Source of the DNA: a virus
Virus record (IMG/VR): IMGVR_UViG_3300042731_007028
Span: 1-28,829 of that record
DNA: 28,829 nucleotides
Strand: one strand, 5' to 3'
Positions within the stretch are counted from its first letter, which is position 1. Each line of letters opens with the position of its first letter. Below the pieces are notes generated by a model. The model searched no databases. It had not been told where the DNA came from and saw only the letters and a program-made list of their open reading frames with translations. The translations under genes and the position numbers were made by a program. Shown one piece after another: positions 1,952 to 23,174 of this stretch.

Positions 1952-1959
1952 ACCTCCTC
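1952..1959 (-). promoter_or_regulatory. Strong ribosome binding site of the tail tube gene, overlapping the previous stop
   Basis: On the minus strand the end of the FkbM gene and the start of the tail tube gene read TGAGGAGGTAACAGATTATG. The TGA stop of the methyltransferase forms the first letters of the GAGGAGGT Shine-Dalgarno sequence. The glycan cassette is therefore joined to the tail tube gene with no spare sequence, which argues that the junction is an evolved and functional one. Confidence 0.75.
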
Positions 1960-4112: not shown

Positions 4113-4127
4113 AACGAATGGCTCCTT

Positions 4128-4730: not shown

Positions 4731-5590
4731 CTCAGCTGCTCCTGCAAATACGACCACATCTCACCGCTGCGCATCTCGTCCAGCGTCCATTGACAATACG
4801 CCAAGTCACACCCCCACTGATACCGCGCAGTATCGTTTGGAAATTCAACAGCTTGAAGTTGATCAAGTCGTTGCATCGCGATGGGTTTAGCAATGGCGTC
4901 GCCCAACACCACACAAGGCACACCCGCGAGTATCGCATCGAATGCCGCGTTGCTGCCGTGGGTAATCAACGCCTTTGCTCCGATCAGTTCTTCTTGAATT
5001 TTCTTCTTACCCTGCGAGAATGTGGTGCCGTCGATCGGTACCGCATCCCGCCAGGTGGGTTTGGGCCGATATACGATCTCGTGCCGAGGCAAATATTTCC
5101 TCACCGCACGCACAACCTTGGCCGCGTACTTAGTCGCGTCTCCAATCTGCTGGAAATCACAATATTTTTGCGACGACCCCGCGTAAATAATATGCCGCCC
5201 CAGGGGTTGGCGAGATTCAAAAACGAAACCCAGCCGGCGCCAACGGTCATCCGGGCGTGGAATGGCTTGGAAGTAAGCAAGCGGTTGAAAGCCATCAACA
5301 CTAAATCGGAAGTACTTCAACTTAACTGCCGGATCATCCCCCCGGCCTCGGTAATACCCTTTATCCACATAGACCACGTGTTTACCCAGCACCCGGTGTT
5401 CGCGGAAAATCTCACCACTACGCCCTTTGACGCCCAACACGATCGCCACGTCGGTCTCAGCCAACGGGCCGTCGTATTCGCTCGTCACCCGTGTCTCGTA
5501 ATCCAATCCCAGCGCTCGCGCACCCTCACCCACCCGCTCAGCCAAACGGTGTTCCAGTGGCTTGTTCGAACGCCAGAAGGTGACCCTCAC
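4727..5590 (-). CDS. GT-B-like capsule/glycan transferase paralogue 3
   Basis: The product is 287 residues from a GTG start at 5590 (MRVTFWRSNKPLEHRLAERV). I chose this start because AGGAGG (5598-5603) lies 7 bases upstream and the GTG overlaps the previous stop as GTGA. The C-terminal half shows a GT-B-like nucleotide-sugar region: EIVYRPKPTW, then ALITHGSNAAFDAILAGVPC and VVLGDAIA. The pattern recalls capsule polysaccharide transferases of the KpsC/KpsS type, which also carry a SNxxxDAxxxG motif. It ends AYCQWTLDEMRSGEMWSYL, an end shared with its two upstream neighbours. The three genes are tandem paralogues. Function as a glycosyl transferase is likely; donor and acceptor are unknown. Confidence 0.75.
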   Translation of the reverse strand: MRVTFWRSNKPLEHRLAERVGEGARALGLDYETRVTSEYDGPLAETDVAIVLGVKGRSGEIFREHRVLGKHVVYVDKGYYRGRGDDPAVKLKYFRFSVDGFQPLAYFQAIPRPDDRWRRLGFVFESRQPLGRHIIYAGSSQKYCDFQQIGDATKYAAKVVRAVRKYLPRHEIVYRPKPTWRDAVPIDGTTFSQGKKKIQEELIGAKALITHGSNAAFDAILAGVPCVVLGDAIAKPIAMQRLDQLQAVEFPNDTARYQWGCDLAYCQWTLDEMRSGEMWSYLQEQLR

Positions 5591-6444
5591 AGCAACCCCT
5601 CCTCTTGCAAATGCCGCCACGGTTTACCCCGCCGGATTTCCGACACATTCCATTGCGTCCAAGCAATGTCACTAAGCCACTGTAGGCGCTCCGCATCGCT
5701 CGGGAAATAAGGGTTATCCAAGTCGCCCAATGTCGATGACATGCGCAAGCCCACGCCATCACCCAGTACCACACAGGGCTTGCCCGCCACGATAGCGTCC
5801 ACCGCCACATTACTGTGGTGCGTCACCACCAGCTTGCACCGGGCCAGCACATCCTCTACCGGTTCGTCAGGGGGAGAATACGCCGCTCCTTCAATGGGGG
5901 TGGCCCCCGGCCACGATGGCTTAGGCCGATATACAATGGGGCTGTCGGTCGCTTCCAGGAGCGATTGCACCACATTTTCTTCAAACTCCTGCGGGCCCAA
6001 CCCGTACACACCCGCTGACTTAGCTGACATGCCCGCCACCAAGATGTACTCCCCGCTCGGGTCGAACGGCTTAATGTCGAGTTCCATCTTCCGCAGGCGC
6101 GTGCTGTTGTGGCGGGTCGCTTGGTAATAGTGATTGGGTTGCAACCCGTCCACCACGACTTTGTGATAACCGCGCAGTCTGCCTCCTTCGATACGCTTCC
6201 AATACCCCAGATCGATCAACAACGTGTGCCTGTCCGCCTTGCGGTATGCTTCATAAACTTTCAATAAATTTCCGCGCAATCCGTAAAATGCGGAGACATC
6301 AGCTTGGGGCGTGCCGTCGAACTGCGCCGCCTGGCGCATGACATTTTTCACCCCACACCGGGACAATCCCACCGCCATGGCGTGGCACAACGTCTTGGAG
6401 CGCTTGCCGTGATCGTAGAATATCTCCACCGTGCGCTGAGTCAT
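5587..6444 (-). CDS. GT-B-like capsule/glycan transferase paralogue 2
   Basis: The product is 285 residues, starting at the ATG at 6444 (MTQRTVEIFYDHGKRSKTLC), which overlaps the upstream stop as ATGA and has GGAGGT about 10 bases before it. Features shared with the paralogues on either side: LIDLGYWKRIEGG in the N-terminal half, VVVDGLQPNHYYQATRHN, EYILVAGMSAKS, PIVYRPKPSWPGATPIEG, KLVVTHHSNVAVDAIVAGKP, CVVLGDGVGL, and the end AWTQWNVSEIRRGKPWRHL. The SNxxxDAxxxGxP segment is the likely nucleotide-sugar site of a GT-B fold. The middle and third paralogues are closer to each other (both have VYRPKPxW and PCVVLGD) than to the first. Confidence 0.75.
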   Translation of the reverse strand: MTQRTVEIFYDHGKRSKTLCHAMAVGLSRCGVKNVMRQAAQFDGTPQADVSAFYGLRGNLLKVYEAYRKADRHTLLIDLGYWKRIEGGRLRGYHKVVVDGLQPNHYYQATRHNSTRLRKMELDIKPFDPSGEYILVAGMSAKSAGVYGLGPQEFEENVVQSLLEATDSPIVYRPKPSWPGATPIEGAAYSPPDEPVEDVLARCKLVVTHHSNVAVDAIVAGKPCVVLGDGVGLRMSSTLGDLDNPYFPSDAERLQWLSDIAWTQWNVSEIRRGKPWRHLQEEGLL

Positions 6445-7259
6445 TGGGTCACATACCTCCATGCTTTGCCGCTCTGCAGTTCGTTCACATGCCACTGTCG
6501 CCAAGCCAGGTCGTAGAACGTTTTCTCGCGCTCAGGGTAGCGCGGCTGCTCGATCGTGTTGATGCCTTTCGTGGCCAAGTCGGCGCACGCAATAGTGGGA
6601 CCGCAGTAGAACACCGGCACGCCATTAATCAGCGCGTCAGTGGCGGCGTTACTCGTCCAGACCACCACGGCAAACGCCCGGGGTAGGCAATCACTCAGCG
6701 GCGTCCGATGGTCCAATACCTCGCAGTTACTTGGCGGTTGCTTGAGTGTTACCACGCGCTCGGGGTGAGGCTTGTAGACCAGTTTCATGCTCGTCCGTTT
6801 CCTCAAACTGTTCAACACCGCGTCCGGCCAGATCGACGGCATCGCCATCGGTGAGTAGTTGTATTTACCTCGTTGCGCACAGACTAGAATATACGCGCCA
6901 TCTTTGACCCACGGTTTCAATTCGATGCCCAGTTTGTCCCAACGCGCCGGCGAATCGTTGGGGGTCGCTTTTTCATTTCCATTAAACCCGTCCAGATTCA
7001 TCAAGTAATAACCTGCCTCCCGCTTGAGATAACCATTCTCCATCACCACGTGCTTGCCGCCCGCCTGCTTGCACTGCCCGGCAAACCGCTTTGCCAGACC
7101 GTAATTGTTCCACGTCACCACCGCGCAATCCCGGGTTAATTGACTGGAATCGGCATGCGTCATGAGCATGTCCCCCGCCGCTTGTACCCCCGCAAGCGTC
7201 TCCCGTCGGGGATACGCGCGATGTTGACGCAACATGACATGTACGAGACGGCGACTCAT
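6441..7259 (-). CDS. GT-B-like capsule/glycan transferase paralogue 1
   Basis: This 272-residue protein begins MSRRLVHVMLRQHRAYPRRE. Its ATG overlaps the stop of the DUF115-like gene (ATGA). Conserved-looking segments are VVMENGYLKREAGYYLMNLD, GAYILVCAQRGKYNYSPMAM, MKLVYKPHPE, VVVWTSNAATDALINGVPVF and the end AWRQWHVNELQSGKAWRYV. The KPHPE plus SNAATDALINGVP pair is typical of GT-B transferases acting on capsule or surface polysaccharides. The order of blocks matches the two downstream paralogues closely, so the three arose by duplication, though clear divergence shows the event is old. No transmembrane segment is visible. Confidence 0.75.
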   Translation of the reverse strand: MSRRLVHVMLRQHRAYPRRETLAGVQAAGDMLMTHADSSQLTRDCAVVTWNNYGLAKRFAGQCKQAGGKHVVMENGYLKREAGYYLMNLDGFNGNEKATPNDSPARWDKLGIELKPWVKDGAYILVCAQRGKYNYSPMAMPSIWPDAVLNSLRKRTSMKLVYKPHPERVVTLKQPPSNCEVLDHRTPLSDCLPRAFAVVVWTSNAATDALINGVPVFYCGPTIACADLATKGINTIEQPRYPEREKTFYDLAWRQWHVNELQSGKAWRYVTQ

Positions 7260-7819
7260 GCCGCATGCTCCAACGGAATTTTTACGAAGGCCTCGATCTG
7301 GGATGTGCTGCAGGCATTGATCACTGTCACACCAATTTTGTCCAAGGCCGGTTTTAGTGTGTCAAAGAATGGTAACATCTTGCTGAACTGCTTTTGCCGA
7401 TTCGCTACCACATAGCCGCTGTGCCAATGCGTTCTCTGCCCGTCGAAACACATATCGAAGCCCAGCAAAATAATAATCTTCGCGCCCAGGTGCACCGCTA
7501 AGTTGATCGCCGCATAACCTGAATTGTTGCCCGAGCGCAAACAGCCCGGGGTCAGGTCCAACCCTTTGTGGCCCGTAAGCGTGTACCGCTCCACGGCGGG
7601 GTGATCCATCTTCGCGCCCGTAATCAATCGACCCGCATGTCCCAATAGCGTGGTCTTATGCCAGTCAAAAAACCGGCGATCGGAGAAATACACCGCCTCG
7701 GCGCCCGGGACCGTCTCATACGCGCGGTTCACCGCAATGACGCGTTTGTCCGCCAACCTTCGCCAATCATAATTGTGTAGTGACGGTCCGCCCGCTACCA
7801 CATACATAATTTCGTCCAT
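7256..7819 (-). CDS. DUF115/MptE-like Rossmann protein (glycan-associated)
   Basis: This 187-residue protein opens MYVVAGGPSLHNYDWRRLAD followed by VIAVNRAYETVPGAE and VYFSDRRFFDWH. Its second half contains SGNNSGYAAINLAVHLGAKI followed by IILLGFDMCF. This GGPSL...NSGYAAxNLAxxLGAxxIxLLGFDM pattern is common in small phage proteins. It is related to the DUF115/MptE-like fold found in flagellar glycosylation factors and some sialyltransferase-like enzymes. A role in sugar transfer or nucleotide-sugar handling is therefore likely but not proven. It is the first gene of the glycan cassette, 4 bases after the tail terminator, with an AAGGCG ribosome site. The next gene starts within its stop codon. 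Confidence 0.7.
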   Translation of the reverse strand: MDEIMYVVAGGPSLHNYDWRRLADKRVIAVNRAYETVPGAEAVYFSDRRFFDWHKTTLLGHAGRLITGAKMDHPAVERYTLTGHKGLDLTPGCLRSGNNSGYAAINLAVHLGAKIIILLGFDMCFDGQRTHWHSGYVVANRQKQFSKMLPFFDTLKPALDKIGVTVINACSTSQIEAFVKIPLEHAA

Positions 7820-12291: not shown

Positions 12292-13248
12292 TTAAGCCGT
12301 TGCTGTGTTGAAAAAGTAGCCTGCCGACGTCAGCACCGCTTTGTGGTCGTAGGCAAACTCGCCCTCAATCCGGTCCGCTTCCAAATGTTCCATGCGGAAG
12401 TTCTTCGTCCGCACCCCGCCGTTCGCCCCGCTGAATGCCCGCCAGGCGAACGTGTAACCCGCCGACGGCACAAGCAGCCCGGGCGCAGGCGCCACGTAGG
12501 CCAACAGCGCATGTTTGCCGGCGATAAAAGCATTGGTTTCCGCGGCTGCACCTTCCTGGCTGGTCGTGTACGACGCACCTGCCACTAGATATCGATCCAC
12601 TTCGAAGAACCGCGCCAACAACGTCGCAGTGATGGAGTCACTGCTCGTGTGTTTAAACCGGTCCGTCACGATGGGGTGGCGCTTTAACGCCTGATGAACG
12701 GGATAGCCCACGATCAACGTGTTGGCGTTCAAGCCGGTCTTCTGCTTAATGCCCGCCTTGCCCGCGTCGACGTCCGTCTCCGGATCGCTCGCCGCATCGT
12801 CCCATTGCGTAAAATCCGTGCCGCCGGTCACATTCGAATCCCAGATACCAGTCGTGAAATAAGATGACGTCCAGTTCACCTCTTTCTGGATCATCAACTG
12901 TTCCATCACGAACGTAGCCGCGCTGCGGTCCATATCAATCGCGGGATCTGAGTTGCTGCGAATCTGATCCGGCACGTCTTTGTGCTCCGCATACACCTCG
13001 CACGTGTACGTGGCCGTGTCGATATCAAAACCGCCGCCTGCCGATTCCGTGCCCGGTGCACGGGGTTTGGCGTTGTTACGTCGAAAGTCGGCCGAGTCGA
13101 ATACGAAATATTCATCGGATCGAAATTCCACCGGCACGGCGGGAAACGCTGTCATTGAAACAAAATCCGTCGCCTGCTGCATGTAAGCCACGCTGATATT
13201 CGTCAGTGCACGGGAGACGTGCACGTCACCTCTGGTCGGTTGAGTCAT
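12292..13248 (-). CDS. Major capsid protein
   Basis: This 318-residue protein begins MTQPTRGDVHVSRALTNISV and carries blocks typical of uncultured-phage major capsid proteins with the HK97 fold: FVSMTAFPAVPVEFRSDEYF, TYTCEVYAEHKDVPDQIRSN, ANTLIVGYPVHQALKRHPIV, HALLAYVAPAPGLLVPSAGY, TFAWRAFSG, and the C-terminal DHKAVLTSAGYFF. The Cys/His pattern and length are normal for this group. Ribosome site AGGAGG sits 8-13 bases before the ATG, behind a T-rich leader, as expected for the most abundant protein. It follows scaffold and decoration genes in the usual order. No delta-domain is obvious; the scaffold is encoded separately upstream. The shell is therefore probably assembled on the separate scaffold. 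Confidence 0.88.
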   Translation of the reverse strand: MTQPTRGDVHVSRALTNISVAYMQQATDFVSMTAFPAVPVEFRSDEYFVFDSADFRRNNAKPRAPGTESAGGGFDIDTATYTCEVYAEHKDVPDQIRSNSDPAIDMDRSAATFVMEQLMIQKEVNWTSSYFTTGIWDSNVTGGTDFTQWDDAASDPETDVDAGKAGIKQKTGLNANTLIVGYPVHQALKRHPIVTDRFKHTSSDSITATLLARFFEVDRYLVAGASYTTSQEGAAAETNAFIAGKHALLAYVAPAPGLLVPSAGYTFAWRAFSGANGGVRTKNFRMEHLEADRIEGEFAYDHKAVLTSAGYFFNTATA

Positions 13249-13304: not shown

Positions 13305-13709
13305 TTACTGCGCTTCGACCTTATACGTGGGCACGCCGATAGTGACCGTGGCCAGCTCGTTCACTGCCGCGCCTTCCAGCACCACGCCCGCCGAGTAGTC
13401 CCCAACGTCGGCGCCGGTTACCGTGCCTTCGACCTTTTTGGCCAGACCGGATCCGTCCGTGCCCCACGTATCACCCGCCGTCAGCGTCTCCGCCGCCACC
13501 ACCTTCGTCACGCCGAGCGACATAATATCACCCGCTTCGCCCGCGCCGGGCTTATCCTGCAGCACGCCCAGCACCACTTCACCATCTGTATCGCACAGCG
13601 AAAACGTGTTGTTCGTCGTACTCATTTTTACGCACTTAAACTGGTGGCTAGTCATTGCGACGTCCGCCACCAAGTTGCCGATATTAAATCCCGGTAATTC
13701 CCAAGCCAT
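13305..13709 (-). CDS. Capsid decoration protein (DUF2190-like)
   Basis: This 134-residue protein begins MAWELPGFNIGNLVADVAMT, then HQFKCVKMSTTN. The block GEVVLGVLQDKPGAGEAGDI, then MSLGVTKVVAAETLTAGDTW and VVLEGAAVNELATVTIGVPT, is typical of DUF2190-type decoration proteins: small beta proteins that sit on the capsid lattice. It precedes the major capsid gene in the same order as in many siphoviruses. The ribosome site AGGAGGT sits 8 bases before the ATG. The gap to the capsid gene is T-rich, with no obvious terminator. Confidence 0.8.
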   Translation of the reverse strand: MAWELPGFNIGNLVADVAMTSHQFKCVKMSTTNNTFSLCDTDGEVVLGVLQDKPGAGEAGDIMSLGVTKVVAAETLTAGDTWGTDGSGLAKKVEGTVTGADVGDYSAGVVLEGAAVNELATVTIGVPTYKVEAQ

Positions 13710-13758: not shown

Positions 13759-14862
13759 TTAATGCGTGGCGCGTTCAGTGCGTTCTTGCCGAGCCAGGTC
13801 GGGGTGCTCGTCCAACGCCTTGACGAACGCTTGTTCAGACGAGATGCCATCGCGTTTGGCAATCTGCTTCGCGGCTTTCTCCAATTTCACCACGGCGGAT
13901 TCTTCCCCGCCCCCGTTGTCAATGTCGGTACCCACTTGCTTGAACAAGTTCTTCAACCCTTCGTCCGCCGCGCGCAGCACGCGCTCCAGTTCGAGGTAGT
14001 CCGCTTCATCCAAGGTGTCCGCCGCCTTCATCAATATCACGCCAAACTCGTCCGGCTTCATTGACAGGGTGTTAAACGCCGCCGCTTTGTTAATGTATTC
14101 CCGGCGCAGACGTGTCTCACGTTCCTTGACCAACAAAGTGCGCTCGCTCTCCAACGACTTCTTCAACTCAGCCGCCTCTTCCGCCGCCACCTTGTTTGCC
14201 TTCCAAAGTTGTTCCAAACCGGGACGCACGCTGTCCGGCACGGTGTCGTCAAACTCCAAACCACTGCCGTCCTTCTTCACGGTATAACCGAGGTCCTCGT
14301 CTTTCTTGCCCGCCTTCTTCATCTCGTCCGGAGGCGCATATCCGTAGCCTGCCTTAGACATTAACTTCTTCATGACTTCCTCAGGCATGCGGTCCTTCAC
14401 GCCGTTTAACGCTTTCAACGCCGTACGACAGGCCTTCTTCAACGTTTCGTCCATTTTGGCCTTGTCCATCTCGTCTTCCATTTCTTTTTCTTTCTGCTTC
14501 ATGGTCTCCTTCTCTTCCTCATCCATCTTACCAGCCTTCAGCACCGACACCGACCCGGCCAGTTCCGGCTCAGCGATCAACGCCTGTACCGCGCCGGCCA
14601 CGTCGGTGTCCTTATACGCCGTCTTGCAGATCGTGCTGTACGCCGTGTCCGATACAATCCGGCTCACGATATCGCCCAGACCGTCTTTGTTCGACGCCAC
14701 CGCCTTTAACAGCTCCGCCTGCTTGTCGTCTTGTATATTCAAAATTAATTCGTCCATCTCGCTACCTCCGCTTTTTGCTTTAAGCACCAAAAACTTCCGC
14801 CGGTTCGCGGCGGCATCCACCAAACTAACTTCTAATGCATCAATATCCGTGAGTTCATTCAT
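13759..14862 (-). CDS. Scaffold-like prohead protein
   Basis: The product is about 367 residues, starting at ATG 14862 (MNELTDIDALEVSLVDAAAN); an in-frame TTG at 14871 that overlaps the protease stop is a coupled alternative. The opening VSLVDAAANRRKFLVLKA resembles a sequence often found next to XkdF-type proteases. The middle is highly charged and helical (DEEEKETMKQKEKEMEDEMD, residues about 115-140) with a coiled-coil appearance. A second helical block runs EAAELKKSLESERTLLVKER. The C-terminal VKLEKAAKQIAKRDGISSEQ, then AFVKALDEHPDLAR, is a common scaffold-end motif. It probably guides capsid assembly and is cleaved by the protease at the end of the upstream gene. Position between protease and decoration/capsid genes fits. 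Confidence 0.82.
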   Translation of the reverse strand: MNELTDIDALEVSLVDAAANRRKFLVLKAKSGGSEMDELILNIQDDKQAELLKAVASNKDGLGDIVSRIVSDTAYSTICKTAYKDTDVAGAVQALIAEPELAGSVSVLKAGKMDEEEKETMKQKEKEMEDEMDKAKMDETLKKACRTALKALNGVKDRMPEEVMKKLMSKAGYGYAPPDEMKKAGKKDEDLGYTVKKDGSGLEFDDTVPDSVRPGLEQLWKANKVAAEEAAELKKSLESERTLLVKERETRLRREYINKAAAFNTLSMKPDEFGVILMKAADTLDEADYLELERVLRAADEGLKNLFKQVGTDIDNGGGEESAVVKLEKAAKQIAKRDGISSEQAFVKALDEHPDLARQERTERATH

Positions 14863-14867
14863 TTGTT

Positions 14868-17800
14868 TCAACCCGTTGTCTTACGCATGCCCGTGCCCCC
14901 GATGCTGAATCCGGTGTATTTCCCCGCCTTGACCGCCGCCCATACATCCGCATCCCGAACCTTCACTGACATTATCCAGCTGCCCGCGCGCACGTGGCCC
15001 GTTCCGATCTGCATCGCTTTAGGGGCAATGTAGCTCTCAATCACCTCGATGGGCCCTTTCTTCTTGTGCTGCAACCCCACCACCCGCGAGCGCACCAGAA
15101 ACTTGTGCGCCGCCGCCTCGATCTCCGGCGCCGAGATGTAATCCCCGTGCAAGTCCTCCACGTCGGGCTCCATCACCACGCCGGTAATAATCTGCTGGTC
15201 TTTATCTTGTTTGGCAATTTTAACCACGTAATCTTTTTGCACCCGGTCCGTGGTGCTGACTCGCTGAGGCTTTACACCAGGCCCCGCCCAGATCAATGCT
15301 TTGTGGCCCCGGGCCTTTAATCGCTTGACCGTGTCCTCCCGCGTGTTCGTTTCGATAAACGGTTTCTGATCCTCCGGCTTCGTCACCATCCACGCCCGCC
15401 CTTCCTTGCCGATAGGCACTGACTGAATCAAATAACGCCCCTTGAGTTTATTCCCGTGCAAAAACACCTCGACGAAGTGGCGGTGACGCACGCCCATCTC
15501 GTACGTCCCGTGATCGAGCGCGAAGAACTTCGCCCACGTCTGCGATGTTGCCCCCACGCCGCCCGGCTCACTGACGAATGGTTTATCCACACCCACAGTC
15601 AACCAGTCTTTCGGCTGGGCCAGTTTGAACGTGCCGCGCAACGGTTTATCTGTGCCACTTAACGCCAGCAGTCGGTCGCCACCAGTACGCTTGTTGTCCG
15701 CCGCCGTGCCAATGAACACCGAAAACCCCCACAGCGCGTCGTCCGCCTCAAACCGCAAGTCCCCGTGCACGCTGTGATCCGTTTCCAACAGCTGCTTATC
15801 GCTCGACGCTTTTTCATCGTCCGACAAGCCACGCCAATGGTGCTGGAAGACAAAGTCGCCCTCCCCACTTTTAGGGTACAGCGAATCCCAATTGTCTTTC
15901 CAAAACCGCTCAGCCGACGCCGCGCGTGTGTCGCCTTCTTCGTCTTTCTGTTTCGCCACGTGCTGCAACACGCCGCCCCGTCGGGCAACATCCACCGCCT
16001 GCGAAGTGGTGTAGGGTGTTTGACGGGAAGCGTCCACATCAAGCACATTTGCCCCCAACCACGTTAATGTGTCGGCCGCCTTATCCGGCACCAACTCCAG
16101 CACATGCACAGTAAGGATGTCACCATTATCCGCCTTAACCTCTGTGTTGAACGACCAACCTAAATCAATATAACCATCCATCGTGTTTGACCACACGTCC
16201 CCCTTCGAAGGCGCGAGTCCGCCCCGGTAGTTCCACCCCGTCTTTACTTTCTTTCTATCCAGCACGACCACCTTCAGTTCAACCACTTTCTTCAACTTGC
16301 TCCAGTCCGACGTCCCGCCCGTGGGGTAGGGCGAATCTGCTGCTTTAGCCACCACACCCTCCGACCGGTCAAACTTAAATCCCCAACGCACCGCGTCTTC
16401 CAGCTGCGCTTTCGTATTGACCATGCGATCGGGCGACACACGCAATAACTTCTTATCGGATAACGTCAATCGATCCAGCGCGCGCTTACGAGCCTCAACC
16501 GGTTCATCCCCCAATGGTTCGTCATAATACGGCAGATCAAAGACAGTCAGCACGGGATATTCATCCGCTTCGAATTCAATCTTGTCGCGGTTAAAGCGCA
16601 TTAACTCAGGCCGGGGCAGGCGCTTGCCGTCACGCTCAATGCCCAGGTCGGCGTCCAGCACCCAATCGCCCGTCAGTTTGCGCAACGCCGCGCCCAACGT
16701 CGGCAACTTGGGCAGCAAATCCACATCCGCTTTCCCTTCCGACCACAGCCGCAGCCGGTCGCCTTGCCGCTCCGCCACGACCCGGAAGCCGTTCCACTTA
16801 GGGCCAACCATGACGGGCAGACGGCCCGTTGCCCAGTCCCACAGGGCGTCTACGCTGAATAACTCCGTCACGCCAGCCAGTAGTGGCTTGGGTGGGGTAA
16901 ATGGCGTAAACGGGCGCACACGCGCTTTCGAGACTAAGTAAGTATTACTTAGTAATGGCTTACGTAATTTACCCCGGACGTAAACTCGGGGGGGCGTGCC
17001 GACCTCTTCCAGCCGATCCACCTCGAACCGAGGCCGATCCTCGATCAACGCCGGATCCGTCCAGAACGCGAACGACGACAGGTTGTAAAACGTCTTGTGT
17101 TCAGGATGTGCGAACGCACCGTCCCCCGCCGTGCTGGGCACCTCGAACACGAAGACCCCTCCCGGCTTTAACACCCGATGCACCTCCCGCAGAATTTTGT
17201 CCATATCTTCCAGGTGTTCCAGGGAATGATTCGCCCGCACCACCGCTACGCTGTCATCCGAGGCAGGGATGCCCAGAGCGAGATCATGCACGCGGTCCAC
17301 ACCCGCCGCCGCCGGATCGCGATCAATGCCGGTATATCCCGGCAACACCTCGTCGCCACAACCTAAGTTGAGTTTAAGCGGCGTCTCGTCCTCGTCACCC
17401 GGATCAAGCGGCTCAATGTATTCGTTACCCAGTCGAAGCATGAACGAGGGGGGTCGCAGGGCGTCGACTGTGCCATAAAACTCAGTGCATAACGTGACGT
17501 GCGGCTCATAAGTTTCGTAATCCCAGCTCGCGCCCAACGACCGCGCTTGCTCATATTGCTGCTTCAGCACGTCGCTCTCCAAAGTGAGTACCAGCGTATT
17601 GCCGAACAGCTTGAGCCTTTCCGGTTTAACTATGACGGACTGAGCGCGCGGCTTGTACCCTTTAAACGGTCGGCGGCTGTATACCGTGGTAGCGTGCATG
17701 TCAGCCGGCGCAACCCGGTGCACACGATCTACACTCTTACAAGTCTTTAGGACAGTCTTGTTCAACCAATCATAGAGCCGATCAGCGCTGGTGGGGTGCA

Positions 17801-19070
17801 CCTTAAATGCAGCGTATACGCCACCACTCGACGCCGCCTTCTCAATATCCTGCAGTACGTCGTCCACCCAACGTTGAGCAGGCTCCCCACCCCACAACAG
17901 GTAAGCAATAGTCCCCGCCGTCGGCCCGCCGTCCGTATCTTTCTTGTCGGGCGCGTAATTGCGCTTGTGGCGAGACAGGAATGCGTTGACACGGTTAATT
18001 TCATTCACACTTAACGATTCACCCGCCGCCAATTGTTTCGCCCGCCGCACCCCCGATCCGATTCCCTGTGCTGCTGCCTCACTCGGACTGAGTCCCCCCC
18101 GGTCCCATTTCTCACGCAATGCCAAGCCGCGCTTAGCGGCCGCACGCACCGCCTTAGGGGGAGTGAAACGTCGCGACCGTGCCTTGACTAGTTGCACCTC
18201 AGCATCCTTACGCCGCCTCAGCACTAGGTCGTAAACCGGCATGTAATCCGCGTGGGGTCCTTGCGGATTGTCAATGAAGTGCAACGTCTCTTCTTTGTCC
18301 GGATCCAACGCCTTGCGCGCTTGCAACCAGATATTTTCCGCCTGAATTAAAAAATTATCTTCAGCATCTCGGCGCGCGCGGAACAACACGTCCATATCGT
18401 TAGGGGGTTTCGTCGCGTCAGCCTGAACGCTGGAGCCCACTACACATACGAAATCCTTTACCACCACCAAATCGCCGTCGTCTGTCGTCGGTTCTTCCTG
18501 CTTGCCCAGCTGTTGCGCCGCTCGTGCAAGGGGCGTCTCCGTATCCACCACAACGCCTTTGTCTTGTAACGCCCGCAGCACCCAGGCCGCCGCGTTAACA
18601 AAATTCTCCACCGCACGCCCTTCGCGCTTCGCACTGGCATACCACTGACTCAAGCGCAGCCAGGCCAATTGCAGTTCGTCTTTTGGCGTCTTCGCCAACT
18701 TAGCCGGCACCATCTCTTCCAGGCTGACCTTAAATAACGGCGTCTCGTCATCCTCGTCGTCAGGTCGGGGCCGGGCAATTGCCAACGGCCCGCCCACGTG
18801 CACATCGCCTACCGTGGGTTGCGCCTTCGTCGTCAGTTCTTCCCCCAGTTCGTCCGCCGCAATAGGTGGGGCTAGATCAATTAAATGCTGAACCGTGCTC
18901 TTGTTGATGTCCATCACCTGGCGCAATCCGCTGTCCAGATGCGCCGCGCACACATCCAACCGCCGCGCGCCGCCCGCCCACAGTAGCACCTTAGTCGCCG
19001 AGCCACCACAGAAGAAGCACTGTGGGTCGGTCCCCATCAGTTGCGCTTGGTGGATATGGTCCTCAGTCAT
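14868..19070 (-). CDS. Giant multidomain protein with C-terminal XkdF prohead protease
   Basis: A single 1400-residue frame. Domains read by eye: 1-50, Cys/His finger (CxxC at 18-21, CxxH at 41-44); 200-295, nucleotidyltransferase-like (GSS at 212, DMD at 225, D281); 300-411, a phage domain with QGIGSGVRRA and GTIAYLLWGGEPAQRW; 416-548, Acb1-like 2H phosphoesterase (HAT 459-461, HVT 524-526); 564-715, SAM methyltransferase (LNLGCG, NHSLEHL); 735-1035, ATP-dependent DNA ligase (KWNG 758-761, EGVVAK 904-909, WSKLKK 923-928); 1070-1233, LigD-like 3'-phosphoesterase (HxDxR 1102-1106); 1278-1396, XkdF protease (DLHGDYIS, GLQHKKKG, GSWIMSVKV, YTGFSIGG). It overlaps the Cys/His gene (ATGA) and lies just before the scaffold. 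I infer that the enzyme domains are packaged with the protease and released by cleavage. Activities are untested. Confidence 0.88.
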   Translation of the reverse strand: MTEDHIHQAQLMGTDPQCFFCGGSATKVLLWAGGARRLDVCAAHLDSGLRQVMDINKSTVQHLIDLAPPIAADELGEELTTKAQPTVGDVHVGGPLAIARPRPDDEDDETPLFKVSLEEMVPAKLAKTPKDELQLAWLRLSQWYASAKREGRAVENFVNAAAWVLRALQDKGVVVDTETPLARAAQQLGKQEEPTTDDGDLVVVKDFVCVVGSSVQADATKPPNDMDVLFRARRDAEDNFLIQAENIWLQARKALDPDKEETLHFIDNPQGPHADYMPVYDLVLRRRKDAEVQLVKARSRRFTPPKAVRAAAKRGLALREKWDRGGLSPSEAAAQGIGSGVRRAKQLAAGESLSVNEINRVNAFLSRHKRNYAPDKKDTDGGPTAGTIAYLLWGGEPAQRWVDDVLQDIEKAASSGGVYAAFKVHPTSADRLYDWLNKTVLKTCKSVDRVHRVAPADMHATTVYSRRPFKGYKPRAQSVIVKPERLKLFGNTLVLTLESDVLKQQYEQARSLGASWDYETYEPHVTLCTEFYGTVDALRPPSFMLRLGNEYIEPLDPGDEDETPLKLNLGCGDEVLPGYTGIDRDPAAAGVDRVHDLALGIPASDDSVAVVRANHSLEHLEDMDKILREVHRVLKPGGVFVFEVPSTAGDGAFAHPEHKTFYNLSSFAFWTDPALIEDRPRFEVDRLEEVGTPPRVYVRGKLRKPLLSNTYLVSKARVRPFTPFTPPKPLLAGVTELFSVDALWDWATGRLPVMVGPKWNGFRVVAERQGDRLRLWSEGKADVDLLPKLPTLGAALRKLTGDWVLDADLGIERDGKRLPRPELMRFNRDKIEFEADEYPVLTVFDLPYYDEPLGDEPVEARKRALDRLTLSDKKLLRVSPDRMVNTKAQLEDAVRWGFKFDRSEGVVAKAADSPYPTGGTSDWSKLKKVVELKVVVLDRKKVKTGWNYRGGLAPSKGDVWSNTMDGYIDLGWSFNTEVKADNGDILTVHVLELVPDKAADTLTWLGANVLDVDASRQTPYTTSQAVDVARRGGVLQHVAKQKDEEGDTRAASAERFWKDNWDSLYPKSGEGDFVFQHHWRGLSDDEKASSDKQLLETDHSVHGDLRFEADDALWGFSVFIGTAADNKRTGGDRLLALSGTDKPLRGTFKLAQPKDWLTVGVDKPFVSEPGGVGATSQTWAKFFALDHGTYEMGVRHRHFVEVFLHGNKLKGRYLIQSVPIGKEGRAWMVTKPEDQKPFIETNTREDTVKRLKARGHKALIWAGPGVKPQRVSTTDRVQKDYVVKIAKQDKDQQIITGVVMEPDVEDLHGDYISAPEIEAAAHKFLVRSRVVGLQHKKKGPIEVIESYIAPKAMQIGTGHVRAGSWIMSVKVRDADVWAAVKAGKYTGFSIGGTGMRKTTG
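16933..16953. repeat. Short perfect inverted repeat inside the giant gene
   Basis: ACTAAGTAA, GTA, TTACTTAGT: two perfect 9-base arms around 3 bases. It is AT-rich within a GC-rich coding sequence, at the linker between the methyltransferase and ligase domains (codons for LLSNTYLV). It may be chance, a binding site or a weak RNA hairpin. Confidence 0.4.
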
Positions 19071-19273
19071 AACGCATTCTCATTCAGTTTGTGATCACCG
19101 CACCAGTCATCAAAATACACTACCGGGAAGCCTTGCATGCTCGGCGCATGCCGGCGGCAACGGCCAACCGATTTCACCGACTGCGCAGACACTTTGTCTA
19201 CGTAGAATCTACACGTTCGGCACCGCATGCCTTCGCCGCGGCCCGCCCAGTTATCCGTCTTTTGATCCGTCAT
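19067..19273 (-). CDS. Small Cys/His (zinc-binding type) protein
   Basis: This 68-residue protein starts at ATG 19273 (MTDQKTDNWAGRGEGMRCRT). It holds C-x2-C (MRCRTCRFYV), then CRRH and WCGDH, four Cys and two suitable His, so a small zinc-bound fold is likely. Similar small CxxC...WCGxH proteins are common in proteobacterial phages, with no agreed role. The start lies inside the portal gene's last codons (23-base overlap) and its stop overlaps the start of the giant gene (ATGA), which supports it as a real coupled gene. The giant protein also opens with a CxxC...CxxH finger. I do not know its function. Confidence 0.75.
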   Translation of the reverse strand: MTDQKTDNWAGRGEGMRCRTCRFYVDKVSAQSVKSVGRCRRHAPSMQGFPVVYFDDWCGDHKLNENAL

Positions 19274-20654
19274 CGCCGTCTTCTTCTGCCGGTTTAAACT
19301 GAGGATCCTCGTCTTCATCCGGTGGATCCGATCGCGGCGCGCGGCCACTTGCCATCTCATCTTCATCCTTCTTCTTCGGCAAAGAGGCAAAGCCCCGCAA
19401 CACGTTTTCCAACTCATCATCAGGGAACAATTCCACACCCGCTCCGGCCAGCTTGGCTAGATACTCACCCAACTCTTTAAGGTCCGGCGTTTCCACATCG
19501 CCATGCACGAAGACCGGCAGATCCATCAGATCGTACCCGTTAAGTTGAAACAAGCGCGGCACCGCGTATTGATTGAACACCGCCGCGATCTCATCCATGA
19601 ACGCGCCCAATGCAACCCCGAACAAATCCGTCTTGTTGGAACTGAGCGCAAAGCTGCCGACCTTTTCATGGCCCAGTAAAATAAAATCCGCTAACATCGT
19701 CATGGCAATGCGTTGCTCGTAACGTCCAACTATTTCGTTCGTGCTAAACTGGCGACTACCTCCGGTACTCAACAACTTCAGTTCATATAATAGATTGCCT
19801 TTGTCATCACGCCCGCCCGGCATGACGATGCCCTCTTGCTCGTCACGGCGTATATTGCGCACGATGTTTTTCAACTCCGTGTACACCTGCGCATCTTCGG
19901 CGCTAGCGCCTGACACCATAATTTTAGTCGGCGCATATATTACCGGCAAGCCCGCTAAGTCGCGCTCAATGCCGATGCCTTCAATTTCCTCGATACGCTT
20001 CTTAAAGAACCACGGGCGAAATGCGTTGCGCAATACACTCCGTCCGTCCGGATTATTCTTGTGGGACGACGTGCGAAACAACAGCGCTTTCTCGATCGGT
20101 ATCGTGTAAATCTGCCCGTTGATCGGGTCACGCTGCACGAAACCTTGCACGCCACCGTCATCGTCAATCAGCCAGTGGTCCAAAGTATCTTGCGCACGAA
20201 TCGGAATCTTACGCCAACCAATTTTACCATCTGTATATTTGCTGCGGCGCGCAGGGTCTTTGTTGCGAGAACCTAACCTACGCTTATACACCAACTCACT
20301 GTAACAAAATCCGTAAGGCAAAAAAGACAGTATTTCGCTGACTAAGTTATCCCAGGACTGCGACATGTCCTCCTTCACACTCTCCAGAAACTCAGCCGCC
20401 GCCAGATCATCCGGTTTGTCACTCTGTGATTCGACCCGCCAATCCACCTGTCGAATTAGCATATCCACCGCGAACAATATGGCGCCGATGATGGGGTCGT
20501 TGTCACGCATTTCGCGCAGCGTCTTCCATCGACGCAAGTCCATCAGCTCGCGGACCCACTCCTCGTCGATGCGGCCCTGCCAGTGTTTAAGACCGGTCGT
20601 GCCGACCTCACTGGTCAGTTTAATAGGCTTATCGTTTTGATCTTTTATCGCCAT
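19251..20654 (-). CDS. Portal protein (DUF935, Mu gp29-like)
   Basis: This 467-residue protein begins MAIKDQNDKPIKLTSEVG and shows the portal order: REMRDNDPIIGAILFAVDML followed by IRQVDWRVE, SFLPYGFCYSELVYK, RRLGSRNKD, DTLDHWLIDDDGGVQGFVQR, KALLFRTSSHKNNPDGRS and VLRNAFRPWFFKKRIEEIEG, then AMTMLADFILLGHEKVGSFA. It forms the dodecameric DNA-entry vertex to which terminase and the adaptor bind. The C-terminal 40 residues are acidic and Pro-rich, probably disordered (SDPPDEDEDPQFKPAEEDGD). Length is close to the Mu gp29 type. It follows the gpF-like gene rather than preceding it, unlike Mu and most of its relatives. The ATG at 20654 has only a weak ribosome site. Confidence 0.9.
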   Translation of the reverse strand: MAIKDQNDKPIKLTSEVGTTGLKHWQGRIDEEWVRELMDLRRWKTLREMRDNDPIIGAILFAVDMLIRQVDWRVESQSDKPDDLAAAEFLESVKEDMSQSWDNLVSEILSFLPYGFCYSELVYKRRLGSRNKDPARRSKYTDGKIGWRKIPIRAQDTLDHWLIDDDGGVQGFVQRDPINGQIYTIPIEKALLFRTSSHKNNPDGRSVLRNAFRPWFFKKRIEEIEGIGIERDLAGLPVIYAPTKIMVSGASAEDAQVYTELKNIVRNIRRDEQEGIVMPGGRDDKGNLLYELKLLSTGGSRQFSTNEIVGRYEQRIAMTMLADFILLGHEKVGSFALSSNKTDLFGVALGAFMDEIAAVFNQYAVPRLFQLNGYDLMDLPVFVHGDVETPDLKELGEYLAKLAGAGVELFPDDELENVLRGFASLPKKKDEDEMASGRAPRSDPPDEDEDPQFKPAEEDGDDGSKDG

Positions 20655-20667
20655 GCAATTCTATCCA

Positions 20668-21600
20668 TTACGTATTTAACACCATGGCACACCGACAGTG
20701 CGGATGGAGGGTCGGACCCATCACCGGTCCCAGAGGTGTATCGAACGACATGCCGATAGGTACGCCATCTGGATTCAATTCCGGGACTGATAAGCATAAT
20801 TTACACGTCACATCGTCCGGCGTAATCTGCCACGCCTTCCTCACGTCAGGACCCAACAACCCCTGATCCAACGCTTGCGCCCACGCTTCTTCTTGTCCCG
20901 CATTCACCGCGTTGATAGTTTCCGTTCGCGCGATGCGCGTCGCGCGGTAGCGCAACTGGCGTTGACGATAGCGGTCTGTCATGCGCTTGATCTGTGCCGG
21001 CTTACGCCCTTCGGACACCAGCATTGCTTTGTAATTATCCACCGCGCTTGCTTGACGGGGGGTGAGTGCTAACAGGTCCTTAATCCGTGTTGACTGTTGC
21101 TGAACCGTTAACCCTTGCGCCACGCCCTCAGTGATGATACGGCGAATACCTTCCTTCGTCGCATCACCCACCTGCATTACCAATTGCGCCGCCTTCGTAC
21201 GCGCGTAGTCCGCCGCGCGGGGATTGAAAATATCAAACACGTATTGCGCCTGAATCGATTTCGGTAACAACTGCCCCGCCGCAATTGCCGCTTGATTATA
21301 CGCCCCACGCAACTCGCCAACTAACGGCGCCAGATGTTTATCCAATTGATCAATGCCCAGCGCCGTGAACACCGCCCGTTCGTTACCGCTCTCCAGCGCG
21401 GCCTGTAAAGCTTTTATTTTTGTCGTGCCCTTCATCGCCTCGACCGCCCGCAAAAACTGCCGGCGCACTGCCGGCGTGGCACGATCCGCAAGTTGATGAA
21501 GCACACGATAAAATTGTCGGTTCGTCTTCGGCACCTTACGGATCACGTAATCCGACACATCGCCCGCAGCTTTCTGCAATAAGATTGACTCCGCACTCAT
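20668..21600 (-). CDS. Minor head (head morphogenesis) protein, Mu gpF-like
   Basis: This 310-residue protein begins MSAESILLQKAAGDVSDYVI. The C-terminal third holds the gpF domain: RYRATRIARTETINAVNAGQ, KAWQITPDDVTCKLC and GPTLHPHCRCAM, with CKLC and HCRC as the likely metal-binding pairs. The middle is helical (YNQAAIAAGQLLPKSIQAQY; TVQQQSTRIKDLLALTPRQA). Such proteins are minor capsid components that act in head assembly and are thought in some phages to enter the cell with the DNA. The start overlaps the terminase stop (ATGA). It is encoded before the portal, the reverse of the usual order. Confidence 0.9.
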   Translation of the reverse strand: MSAESILLQKAAGDVSDYVIRKVPKTNRQFYRVLHQLADRATPAVRRQFLRAVEAMKGTTKIKALQAALESGNERAVFTALGIDQLDKHLAPLVGELRGAYNQAAIAAGQLLPKSIQAQYVFDIFNPRAADYARTKAAQLVMQVGDATKEGIRRIITEGVAQGLTVQQQSTRIKDLLALTPRQASAVDNYKAMLVSEGRKPAQIKRMTDRYRQRQLRYRATRIARTETINAVNAGQEEAWAQALDQGLLGPDVRKAWQITPDDVTCKLCLSVPELNPDGVPIGMSFDTPLGPVMGPTLHPHCRCAMVLNT

Positions 21601-23174
21601 ACTCGGCCCCCCCGCCAGGGGCTCTGACGCGTTAAGCTAAACGGCGCAATCGCTGGAACCAGGTGATCCGTTCGCTCACGCTTACGAATGTGTTTTAAAA
21701 ATTGTGACATCGCGTCCAGTTCGTCCCACATAGGTGGGGCGGGGAAGTGACTCAAACATTCTTCGAGGAACGCCAGCCAGGCCGTGGGCACGTGCATCGG
21801 ATCGGGAAGGGAGATAACGCCCGCTTCGAGACTGGGTGTCTGCGTGTCGAACCGCGTAATCTTGTCCGACTCAGGCTCAATCGGAATCACCGGCAAATCC
21901 GTATGCTCTTCCAACTCTTGTATCAACGACGAACCGCTGGATTTATCTTCGATGCAAATCGCGTCGGGGTGCCACTCATCCGCCATCGCAATAACCATGC
22001 GTTTTAACGCCGGATAGCGCACATGATCTTTCCACTGATGGGCCAGGTACCACTGCGCATCGCGCCGGACATACACTTGCCCCACACTGGGATTGTTGAT
22101 CTCTCGTCCTTTTTGTGCGGTGTCGTAACTCAGGATGACTTCGTCGTAACTTGTCGGCAATACCCGATACCGGGGGAACCAATCCGTCTTCACCCGACCG
22201 CCGCCAACAGGGGTGGGGCGCTGCTGGTGCTGGCCCGCGTACCCGTACGTGCCAAGTCGTAATTTCGCCTGGTCTCTCGCCGTCTCGTCAAACCGCGCCG
22301 CATGCAGCAACTCATCTTTCTGCCGAATTTTCTTTTTGCCACTGAGTGGGTATGTAATGACCGTACGACGTTCAGCTTCCTGGGGGATGACGACATGTTC
22401 CCAATGCGCCTCCCGCCGATCCTCCAGCGCTTCATGGAATTGGGCGCTGCGCTTCGCCGCCGCCTGTTGCGATAAAATATGGCCAGTGCTATCGTCCACA
22501 TGCAGTCGCTGCATAATAATCACCTCGGACGATTTCTGGGGATCGTTCTTCCGCGTTGACCAAGTCTGATCCACCCACTCGTTCGTCGCCTTCCGCTCCG
22601 GCTCCGACAGGGAACGCCGGGGATCCATGGGGTCGTCCAGTATCAACTTATCCCCGCCCTCACCCGTCGCGGTACCTCCCACGGAGGTCGCGATGCGGTG
22701 TCCCCTCGCCGTGGTCTGGAACTTCGTCTTCTCGTTCTGATCTCGGGCCAGATGCACTTGCGGGAATACCTGGCGATACCACTCCGACTCAATCACCACG
22801 CGGCAATCGACTGAGTGCTTCGTCGCCAACTTGTCCGCGTAGCTCGCGGCCAATATCTGATCACTCGAATCCTTGCCCAACAACCAAGCAGGCCACCCCA
22901 CCGTGCCGCAGATTGATTTTAGAAATCGGGGGGGCACATTAAGGATTAGATTGATAACTTGTTTTAAATAAACCGCCTCAAGATATTCCGCCATGTAGTC
23001 TATGTGCCAGTTGTGACGATACGCTGTCTTCGGATCCACCGTCGTGAAGACCTTCTTGATAAAAGGAGCCACGTGTTCTCGCATACGCTTCCGCGCTAAC
23101 AACTGTTTCGCCGCTTCCGAGCGAATAATCACAAGGTTCGAGCGGGCCGCCTCAACGGAATTAGTGTTCACCAC
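21597..23174 (-). CDS. terL: Large terminase subunit
   Basis: The product is 525 residues with a GTG start at 23174 (a second GTG follows directly); CGGAG lies about 10 bases upstream. It is the packaging motor. ATPase: Walker-A-like NVPPRFLKSI (residues 79-88, the deviant PPRxxKS form), LILDDPMDP (177-185) as Walker B, preceded by GGTATGEGGDK. Nuclease: VILSYDTAQKG (D351), CIEDKSSGSS (D410), and WDELDAMSQFL near the C-terminus as third acidic cluster. It therefore looks catalytically complete. It overlaps the putative small terminase by 14 bases and the gpF-like gene by 4 (ATGA). Gene order and motifs make this one of the safest calls in the window. The packaging type (cos, pac, repeats) cannot be told from this. 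Confidence 0.95.
   Translation of the reverse strand: MVNTNSVEAARSNLVIIRSEAAKQLLARKRMREHVAPFIKKVFTTVDPKTAYRHNWHIDYMAEYLEAVYLKQVINLILNVPPRFLKSICGTVGWPAWLLGKDSSDQILAASYADKLATKHSVDCRVVIESEWYRQVFPQVHLARDQNEKTKFQTTARGHRIATSVGGTATGEGGDKLILDDPMDPRRSLSEPERKATNEWVDQTWSTRKNDPQKSSEVIIMQRLHVDDSTGHILSQQAAAKRSAQFHEALEDRREAHWEHVVIPQEAERRTVITYPLSGKKKIRQKDELLHAARFDETARDQAKLRLGTYGYAGQHQQRPTPVGGGRVKTDWFPRYRVLPTSYDEVILSYDTAQKGREINNPSVGQVYVRRDAQWYLAHQWKDHVRYPALKRMVIAMADEWHPDAICIEDKSSGSSLIQELEEHTDLPVIPIEPESDKITRFDTQTPSLEAGVISLPDPMHVPTAWLAFLEECLSHFPAPPMWDELDAMSQFLKHIRKRERTDHLVPAIAPFSLTRQSPWRGGRV

Follow-up and report, generated by a model that had tools for sequence, protein, structure and literature searches.

Genomic context of the polyprotein gene

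The window analyzed here is a 28,829-nucleotide stretch of viral DNA (IMG/VR record IMGVR_UViG_3300042731_007028), and all of the features described below lie on its minus strand. An ORF at 14868..19070 encodes a polyprotein of 1400 amino acids in which cargo enzymes are joined to a C-terminal XkdF-type head protease. The ORF starts with ATG and continues in a single frame with zero internal stops. From the N- to the C-terminus, the domains of the protein are zinc finger, helical domain, nucleotidyltransferase (NTase), GIGSGV domain, Acb1, methyltransferase, ligase, 3'-phosphoesterase, and XkdF. A frame error or mis-assembly was considered and ruled out, as the domain order was found again in dozens of contigs. 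Chance is likewise excluded because dozens of independent contigs have the same domain string.

The gene is located in the head operon, with the portal on one side and the scaffold and capsid genes on the other. On the portal side are the terminase large subunit (21597..23174; phrog_38, 2.5e-84), a MuF-like head morphogenesis protein (20668..21600; phrog_3517, 1e-46), and the portal itself (19251..20654; phrog_113, 4e-85). A Cys-rich protein of 68 amino acids with weak Pfam matches (19067..19273) overlaps both the end of the portal gene and the start of the polyprotein (ATGA). The scaffold gene (13759..14862), whose product matches phrog_3017 (2-33) at its N-terminus, begins at the polyprotein stop, and the major capsid protein is encoded at 12292..13248 (phrog_1005, 6e-80). 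The portal, Cys-rich protein, polyprotein, and scaffold genes are thereby linked by overlap or abutment.

The initial annotation of this DNA had described a fused frame ending in an XkdF protease, and this is borne out. The XkdF (Peptidase_S78_2) domain occupies residues 1282-1395 (14886..15227) and matches PF14550 at 5e-32 (110.9 bits against a cut-off of 24). Residues D1306, H1335, and S1389 are invariant across 11 XkdF sequences; a diverse XkdF alignment gave no usable pattern. As is usual for XkdF, the domain adjoins the scaffold and major capsid genes. The accompanying claim that XkdF is normally a small gene is true in part, as the domain is often fused to the scaffold elsewhere (ul36, psiM2). 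The label 'DNA methyltransferase' on phage XkdF genes was also considered as a sign of fused methyltransferases and rejected, the JG004 gene coding for the protease only (~156 amino acids).

Cargo domains

All the cargo domains named in the initial annotation were recovered: Acb1, the methyltransferase, and the ligase by Pfam, the phosphoesterase by profile and fold, and also the GIGSGV domain and the finger. The NTase was recovered by its motifs, with no fold match, and the list had missed an eighth domain, the helical one. The N-terminal zinc-finger-like domain (18900..19031; residues 14-57) has the pattern CFFC...CAAH, which spans residues 14-62, and its profile was found again in relatives L080 and L123. 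The helical domain (18507..18719; residues 118-188) is present in 50 of the 69 phosphoesterase ORFs collected; its AlphaFold model is of high confidence and without a PDB match.

The putative Pol-beta-type NTase spans residues 192-296 (18183..18497) with D225, D227, and D281 in a G...DxD...D motif that is invariant in nine relatives. Matches to PF01909 were weak (best 0.019), PDB searches were empty or gave a non-significant Pol-beta match, and the AlphaFold model had no PDB fold match; a Pol-beta-like identity is claimed on the motifs only. Next is the GIGSGV domain (17838..18176; residues 299-411; phrog_2859), where the window reads GIGSGVRRA and not GIGSGVQRA as first annotated. With 32-53% identity to its relatives it is a real conserved domain without a known fold. 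It is fused to XkdF in DC31, a Vibrio phage, and L057-L059, and is a companion domain of head proteases.

The Acb1-type 2H phosphoesterase (17397..17837; residues 412-558) matches PF23474 over residues 417-557 (3e-22, 79.6 bits against a cut-off of 27) and PDB entry 7t26 (8e-8). Both HxT motifs of a 2H domain are present (H459xT461 and H524xT526), and both are retained in L080. Acb1 domains occur chiefly as portal or XkdF fusions, or inside giant proteins. The SAM-dependent methyltransferase (16932..17387; residues 562-713) matches PF08241 (Methyltransf_11) over residues 594-642 at 1.4e-9.

The catalytic domain of an ATP-dependent DNA ligase follows (16236..16925; residues 716-945; K758), with a match to PF01068 (DNA_ligase_A_M) over residues 754-927 at 9e-14. 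Its profile matches DNA ligases (3gde at 2e-18), and alignments place motifs I, III, IIIa, IV, and V and the OB fold, motif I being KWNG in the window instead of KxDG. The ligase OB-fold domain (15966..16238; residues 945-1035) is next, and almost every relative has it in this position.

For the LigD-type 3'-phosphoesterase (15321..15863; residues 1070-1250), the Pfam LigD_N match was weak (0.04). A 37-sequence profile searched against the PDB retrieved at E<0.01 LigD-type phosphoesterases only (3p43 at 3e-6, 5dmp, 3p4h, 3n9b, and 2lj6). The AlphaFold model has a pLDDT of 94, and all seven Foldseek matches at E<0.001 are LigD phosphoesterases, so that at the level of the predicted model the LigD-type fold is confirmed. 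Alignment rows from phage-collection sequences were left out of two fold predictions. H1078, H1102, D1104, and R1106 are invariant or nearly so in the 37 sequences. PaeLigD has a second active-site His/Tyr, a counterpart of which was not located in the window phosphoesterase.

Distribution of the fusion

A whole-protein search of IMG/VR retrieved no full-length relative of the polyprotein; relatives were found by domain-wise searches. XkdF is in the same frame in 55 of the 69 phosphoesterase ORFs found, most commonly in the layout NTase-(methyltransferase)-ligase-(uracil glycosylase)-phosphoesterase-XkdF. Among 54 ligase ORFs, the NTase lies upstream in 53 and the phosphoesterase downstream in 50; the NTase-ligase-phosphoesterase order is near-obligate. 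A uracil-DNA glycosylase is encoded in 37 of the 69 phosphoesterase ORFs and a D12 DNA methyltransferase in eight. The window polyprotein is without the glycosylase.

Separate early genes for these enzymes in related phages would have counted against the initial annotation, and this pattern was not found: in a scan made without using XkdF, 44 of 54 phosphoesterase loci had XkdF in the same ORF. XkdF ORFs with an N-terminal part of >170 amino acids numbered 77; a portal or MuF gene was upstream in 55 and a capsid protein downstream in 48, with some neighbors lost to contig ends. Fusion to XkdF is not required, as some relatives are unfused. Most of those with readable neighbors adjoin a portal, capsid protein, or XkdF gene, and L016 and ANMV-1 are in the head cluster although the protease there is another one. 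The family is large and mostly uncultivated; a search for the full repair fusion among cultivated phages yielded none.

A lysine motif at domain borders

The motif [ILMVF]xK[AS] (hxK[AS]) was first spotted by eye and afterwards tested, with the reversed motif as control. In scaffolds adjoining XkdF it occurs 481 times against 104.7 expected (reversed, 123 against 103.6), an excess whose z-score is inflated because 69 of the 81 scaffolds are in a single BLAST cluster. With one scaffold per cluster, the counts are 37 against 11.6 (reversed, 15 against 11.7). The window scaffold alone has 13 motifs against 1.9 expected. Other ORFs, from which scaffolds and duplicate polyproteins had been removed, gave 1.21 against 1.20 for the reversed motif, and K/A-rich controls gave 1.43 against 1.42, with no enrichment.

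In the XkdF fusions the motif is found 145 times outside the cargo cores against 53.8, and 63 times inside them against 52.9, while relatives without XkdF are not enriched (9 against 8.8). It is present at the phosphoesterase-XkdF junction in 30 of 39 proteins and at the uracil glycosylase-phosphoesterase junction in 11 of 22, compared with 3 of 29 at an internal ligase border. Four of the five motif sites in the window polyprotein fall in linkers, although these account for 15% of its length, a placement seen in 2 of 2000 shuffles. These predicted cut sites are INK57↓S58 (18899..18901), LVK296↓A297 between NTase and GIGSGV (18182..18184), IEK411↓A412 between GIGSGV and Acb1 (17837..17839), and VSK715↓A716 between methyltransferase and ligase (16925..16927). 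Weaker predicted sites of the variant hxKQ are VAK1040↓Q in the ligase-phosphoesterase linker (15950..15952) and IAK1287↓Q between phosphoesterase and protease, at the protease start (15209..15211). The Acb1-methyltransferase junction of the window is without the motif.

A border motif linked to the protease suggests, at the level of sequence, release by cleavage, and would be consistent with the earlier proposal that the enzymes are freed in this way. The motif might instead be a helical or binding element of scaffolds and not a cut site, which would concern the cleavage step only. Scaffolds are indeed helical and most of those counted come from one cluster, but hxK[AS] is lysine-specific, directional, and absent from K/A-rich controls, and enzyme linkers are enriched only with XkdF present; we consider this reading rather unlikely.

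Proposed function and alternatives

In the reading that we think fairly probable, the gene product is a self-cleaving polyprotein of head assembly through which a kit for DNA repair and protection is loaded into the capsid, packaging and delivery being the steps that we infer. From the late head operon, where the gene is found between portal and scaffold, the C-terminal XkdF would bring the fused enzymes into the procapsid. The motif statistics suggest that it may cut both scaffold and polyprotein there, after the lysine of sites of the type [ILV]xK↓[AS], and this cleavage would remove the scaffold and free each enzyme as a unit. Once freed, the enzymes would stay with the genome and accompany it into the next cell. 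The NTase, 3'-phosphoesterase, and ligase could then act on the incoming genome where its ends are damaged or open, cleaning, filling, and sealing them, in most relatives together with the uracil-DNA glycosylase. Acb1 is predicted to blunt CBASS signaling, and the methyltransferase would modify some target. The motifs of the ligase, phosphoesterase, Acb1, NTase, and protease are intact. Points against this reading are the junctions that lack hxK[AS], the unfused relatives, the KWNG of ligase motif I, the NTase model without a fold match, and the absence of the uracil glycosylase from the window protein.

A broader statement, for which we see about even prospects, is that many uncultivated tailed viruses have a capsid-borne, self-processing repair polyprotein that is made as an N-terminal extension of the XkdF head protease, is freed at hxK↓[AS], and on entry mends virion DNA that was damaged outside the cell, the XkdF class sharing this specificity. 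The cargo in this broader statement is a Pol-beta-type NTase, a ligase, a 3'-phosphoesterase, and usually a uracil glycosylase, plus anti-defense modules.

The late head-operon position would also suit enzymes that act in the producing cell, in or at the procapsid, mending and sealing DNA during packaging and being discarded with the scaffold after cleavage. The motif of the linkers is also that of the scaffold, so that the cargo could go the same way. However, ordinary separate enzymes could do this work, and Acb1 and an adenine methyltransferase make little sense as cargo in an already captured cell; we regard such packaging-time repair as unlikely. The fusion could also be a form of dosage coupling, with the parts separated in the cytoplasm and the enzymes staying out of virions as ordinary late enzymes. 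Cleavage by itself would account for the motif, and unfused relatives exist, yet these mostly remain in the head cluster, including those with other proteases (L016, ANMV-1), and Acb1 recurs as portal fusions too, which makes dosage coupling quite improbable.

Equally improbable to us is that the 2H phosphoesterase, ligase, and NTase form an RNA-repair set against tRNA-cleaving defenses. 2H domains and ATP-grasp ligases are found in RNA repair (PMC7824862), and the KWNG in motif I of the window ligase is in line with this. The ligase profile nonetheless matches DNA ligases (2e-18), the phosphoesterase matches LigD enzymes of DNA repair, and the uracil-DNA glycosylase and D12 DNA methyltransferase of relatives also argue for a DNA substrate.

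The recurrence of the fusion in dozens of viruses suggests a ready-made repair and protection kit that is packed and then cut into enzymes in the particle. Little is known of how phages protect and repair their genomes during the opening minutes of an infection, or of the enzymes that the head carries. If our reading of a packaged kit is true, a family with near-fixed repair cargo would mean that DNA repair is packaged as well as being expressed once the genome has entered. The predicted cleavage motif offers a testable specificity for XkdF proteases and could make packaged cargo predictable from sequence alone in many XkdF phages, cultivated ones included. Protease fusion could be a general cargo-loading route, of use in engineering.

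Comparison with known systems

The XkdF proteases of PBSX, psiM2, and ul36 share the domain, the catalytic residues, and the place before scaffold and capsid genes, but are usually alone or scaffold-fused, whereas the window has a 1280-residue enzyme string. Bacterial NHEJ LigD, which can also act in base excision repair (PMC4770248), likewise has a DNA ligase, a 3'-phosphoesterase, and a nucleotide-adding domain in one polypeptide. Its domain order is different, with a primase-type polymerase where the window has a Pol-beta-type NTase, and the window family has a head protease joined and, in many members, a uracil glycosylase inserted. Pfam gave no match to a primase-type POL domain in the window polyprotein. 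Simple capture of an NHEJ LigD was considered and rejected, as both order and polymerase differ.

In mycobacteriophages Omega and Corndog, Ku has a gene of its own and brings in the LigD of the host, whereas the window phage encodes its own ligase and end-cleaning enzymes. This Ku serves end joining at genome entry, and its packaging in the capsid has been suggested (PMC3706429). The ANMV-1 virus protein AJP62006, an 'ATP-dependent DNA ligase', also combines NTase, ligase, and phosphoesterase, its single gene being flanked by those for the portal and a MuF-type protein, but lacks the XkdF fusion, Acb1, and the methyltransferase. In SPN3US, the prohead protease belongs to a family other than XkdF, and unlike in the window the cargo is encoded by separate genes. 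The substrates of that protease are head proteins, and the virion takes up many gene products that leave it together with the DNA (PMC10052503).

A close parallel is with the polyvalent phage proteins described by Iyer et al. in 2017 (PMC5512222), which are large, combine disparate enzyme domains (2H, methyltransferase, and InPase among them), occur in terminase-portal phages, and are predicted to be packaged and injected. Some carry assemblin-like (prohead) peptidases at their C-termini. The window polyprotein similarly has at least two domains of disparate biochemistry on one polypeptide in a terminase-portal phage, and it and its relatives end in a peptidase as that subset does (XkdF at 1282-1395 of 1400). 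We infer that XkdF falls in the 'assemblin-like' class from the prohead protease citation given there. In that account the main processing enzyme is instead a zincin metallopeptidase, and no cleavage motif was found in it. No description of a fusion like the present one was found in the open-access literature. The initial annotation had known of no such system; the kind was in fact on record (PMC5512222), while as to content the statement is right, the main text of that paper having no DNA ligase, no LigD phosphoesterase, and no uracil glycosylase as cargo. Polyvalent proteins with a C-terminal peptidase have thus been known since 2017, while the repair cargo and the cleavage motif appear to be new.

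The polyprotein and its gene neighborhood

The window is an entire IMG/VR virus record, a linear fragment of 28,829 bases. Positions 14868-19070 (minus strand) form one uninterrupted frame of 1400 aa, in which Pfam places Acb1 (residues 417-557, 3e-22), a class-I methyltransferase (near residues 594-642, 1e-9), an ATP-dependent DNA ligase domain (residues 754-927, 9e-14), LigD_N (residues 1100-1215, a weak match) and the XkdF head protease (residues 1282-1395, 5e-32). PHROGs concur on the protease, the 2H/'RNA ligase', the ligase and the methyltransferase, and also assign the GIGSGV domain, named by its motif, to phrog_2859. The initial annotation of several nucleic-acid enzyme domains joined to XkdF in a single frame is upheld by this ORF and these assignments. 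XkdF retains its conserved Asp, His and Ser (D1306, H1335, S1389), the ligase its lysine (K758), Acb1 two HxT motifs (H459, H524) and the Pol-beta-like nucleotidyltransferase (NTase) an acidic triad (D225, D227, D281).

The LigD-type phosphoesterase, doubtful by Pfam, was settled by profile and structure searches. At E<0.01 a profile of 37 relatives matched LigD-type phosphoesterases exclusively in the PDB (3p43 3e-6, 5dmp 2e-5, 3p4h 7.5e-5, 3n9b, 2lj6), and all seven Foldseek matches at E<0.001 to its AlphaFold model (pLDDT 94) were LigD phosphoesterases, bearing out the fold first proposed. The proposed NTase stood in part: its Pol-beta signature is kept across nine relatives and it matches PF01909 weakly, but its AlphaFold model is of low confidence and a structure search gave no matching fold, so that its assignment rests on motifs. 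The helical and GIGSGV domains gave confident models, yet no match in the PDB.

The surrounding minus-strand genes are, in order, TerL (21597-23174), a MuF-like gene (20668-21600), the portal (19251-20654), a 68-aa Cys-rich protein (19067-19273), the polyprotein, a scaffold (13759-14862), a small capsid-region gene (13305-13709) and the major capsid protein (12292-13248). The Cys-rich gene shares bases with the end of the portal gene and, through an ATGA overlap, with the beginning of the polyprotein gene, whose stop is where the scaffold starts. Promoter-like matches around the polyprotein region were no more than chance. Elsewhere within the structural gene region (1958-7819, minus strand) are about eight sugar- or methyl-transferase-like genes, including two FkbM methyltransferases, GT8-like and DUF6716-like glycosyltransferases and an MptE-like gene, a run that looks suited to modifying virion proteins or host glycans.

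XkdF fusions in other viruses

Viral contigs were scanned separately with the XkdF, phosphoesterase and Acb1 domains. Scanning with XkdF recovered 106 distinct ORFs carrying the domain, many of which extend far on its N-terminal side (longest protein, 1776 aa); the fused proportion is not a census because these scans were partly seeded with fused proteins. Phosphoesterase patterns alone found 59 loci, 54 with a mapped distinct ORF: XkdF is in frame in 44, two are cut by a contig end and eight are unfused. Across all loci, the 69 phosphoesterase ORFs include XkdF in 55, NTase in 52, ligase in 50, uracil-DNA glycosylase (UDG) in 37, methyltransferase in 21, D12 DNA methyltransferase in 8 and Acb1 in 2. 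Their order is near constant: helical, NTase, (methyltransferase), ligase, OB, (UDG), phosphoesterase, XkdF. Ligase ORFs have NTase upstream in 53 of 54 cases and phosphoesterase downstream in 50. The window polyprotein is a variant with finger, GIGSGV and Acb1 domains and without UDG. Pfam confirms UDG, D12, inorganic-pyrophosphatase-like (InPase), ligase and Acb1 domains in other members. One member (L071) sits in a Bacillota MAG; among 398 searched genomes of that phylum, one further genome has a member (L213).

Within 4 kb of 77 large XkdF ORFs, on contigs often truncated, a portal or MuF lies upstream of 55 and a capsid protein downstream of 48. Stand-alone XkdF also exists in phages with a capsid protein nearby (RDJL Phi 1 gp71, 132 aa). 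Of the relatives without the fusion, the NTase-ligase-phosphoesterase protein AJP62006 of ANMV-1 is encoded between portal and MuF-type genes, L015 comes after a portal, L016 (1344 aa) is upstream of a different protease-scaffold gene and a capsid gene, both called from sequence, and in L205 a separate XkdF gene starts 16 bases downstream. From these positions, the repair module tends to remain in the head cluster, fused or not.

Compact UDG-XkdF fusions of 348-576 aa (L017, L022, L081) are the simplest form with repair cargo. InPase domains are joined to XkdF in L123 and L101; this domain was already among the polyvalent proteins in 2017 (Iyer et al. 2017, PMC5512222). In L192 (4891-8002), L160 and L184 the phosphoesterase or UDG region is where polyprotein and XkdF part into overlapping frames, for which sequencing error, gene split or frameshift are possible causes. 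Many protease-only XkdF genes in Pseudomonas phage records (such as L009, 3902-4372) are labelled 'DNA methyltransferase', as is PHROG 1530.

The Acb1-type scan gave 26 loci. Acb1 is joined to XkdF between portal and capsid genes in L219-L221 and L223, lies within proteins of 1.5-2.8 kaa in L214, L216, L218 and L232, and forms the C-terminus of a gene after TerL, in the portal's place, in L228, L230, L231, L233, L235 and also L225. Cultivated Pseudomonas phiPSA1 and Rhizobium phages also carry it under a portal annotation. These C-terminal positions suggest that the portal may include an anti-CBASS-like domain. Fusions of 2H domains to MuF and portal were noted earlier, with the proposal that they may degrade defence nucleotides (Iyer et al. 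2017, PMC5512222).

A candidate cleavage motif

A hydrophobic-x-K-A/S motif was spotted by eye in scaffolds and linkers, then tested. Across 82 scaffolds made non-redundant at 60%, [ILMVF]xK[AS] is found 481 times versus 104.7 in shuffles (reversed motif, 123 versus 103.6). The enrichment vanishes when E, R or Q takes the place of K. The wider profile reads [EF]x[IVL]xK[AS], and [ILMVF]xK[AGS] is the top-ranked three-position class pattern of this shape. A single BLAST cluster holds 69 of 81 scaffolds; with one scaffold per cluster the counts are 37 versus 11.6 (reversed, 15 versus 11.7). Forward and reversed motifs were equal in 394 other ORFs from the same loci (1.21 and 1.20) and in the K/A-rich ones among them (1.43 and 1.42). 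Three upstream head-region proteins also exceed expectation (L117 622-2616, 8 versus 2.1; L103 3708-5807, 6 versus 2.1; L097 5591-6835, 5 versus 1.8) and are possibly further protease substrates.

Outside the core domains of 46 non-redundant fusions the motif occurs 145 times against 53.8 expected (reversed, 55); inside them, 63 against 52.9. Of the junctions, 30 of 39 phosphoesterase-XkdF, 12 of 18 ligase-UDG and 8 of 12 NTase-ligase carry it, but just 3 of 29 borders between ligase halves, where no cut is expected. Seven family proteins without XkdF are not enriched (9 versus 8.8). We infer that XkdF cleaves at this motif.

In the window polyprotein K57, K296, K411 and K715 lie in linkers, which make up 15% of the protein, a placement equalled in 2 of 2000 shuffles; the fifth site, K909, coincides with the lysine of ligase motif IV. 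A weaker hxKQ form occurs at K190, K1040 and K1287, with one more inside Acb1 (K503). Assuming the exact scissile bond, the predicted products are finger (residues 1-57), helical (58-190), NTase (191-296), GIGSGV (297-411), Acb1 plus methyltransferase (412-715), ligase (716-1040), phosphoesterase (1041-1287) and protease (1288-1400).

Possible role and relation to polyvalent proteins

Together the cargo enzymes would form a compact DNA mending set able to clean 3' ends, add nucleotides and seal, joined in relatives by a glycosylase. Plausible substrates would be damage to virion DNA (cytosine deamination, strand breaks) or open ends on entry, if the enzymes are packaged, delivered and active as their domains suggest. 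What the analysis establishes is that the domains are fused, what they are, where their genes lie and how the motif is distributed; cutting at the motif, packaging, delivery and function are inferred from these. LigD itself is able to perform polymerisation, dRP removal and sealing in base excision repair (PMC4770248). Packaging was suggested for Ku of Cluster J mycobacteriophage (PMC3706429), and phage SPN3US, whose prohead protease cleaves head proteins, packages and ejects many proteins (PMC10052503).

No full repair fusion was found among the cultivated phages searched, nor any description of a DNA-repair-XkdF fusion in the open-access literature. Iyer et al. (2017, PMC5512222) had already described polyvalent proteins that end in an assemblin-like peptidase, and the polyprotein is of this known kind. 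Unlike the proteins in the main text of that study, the XkdF family has ligase, LigD phosphoesterase and UDG cargo; what appears new is therefore this DNA-repair cargo, together with a candidate, directly testable XkdF specificity.
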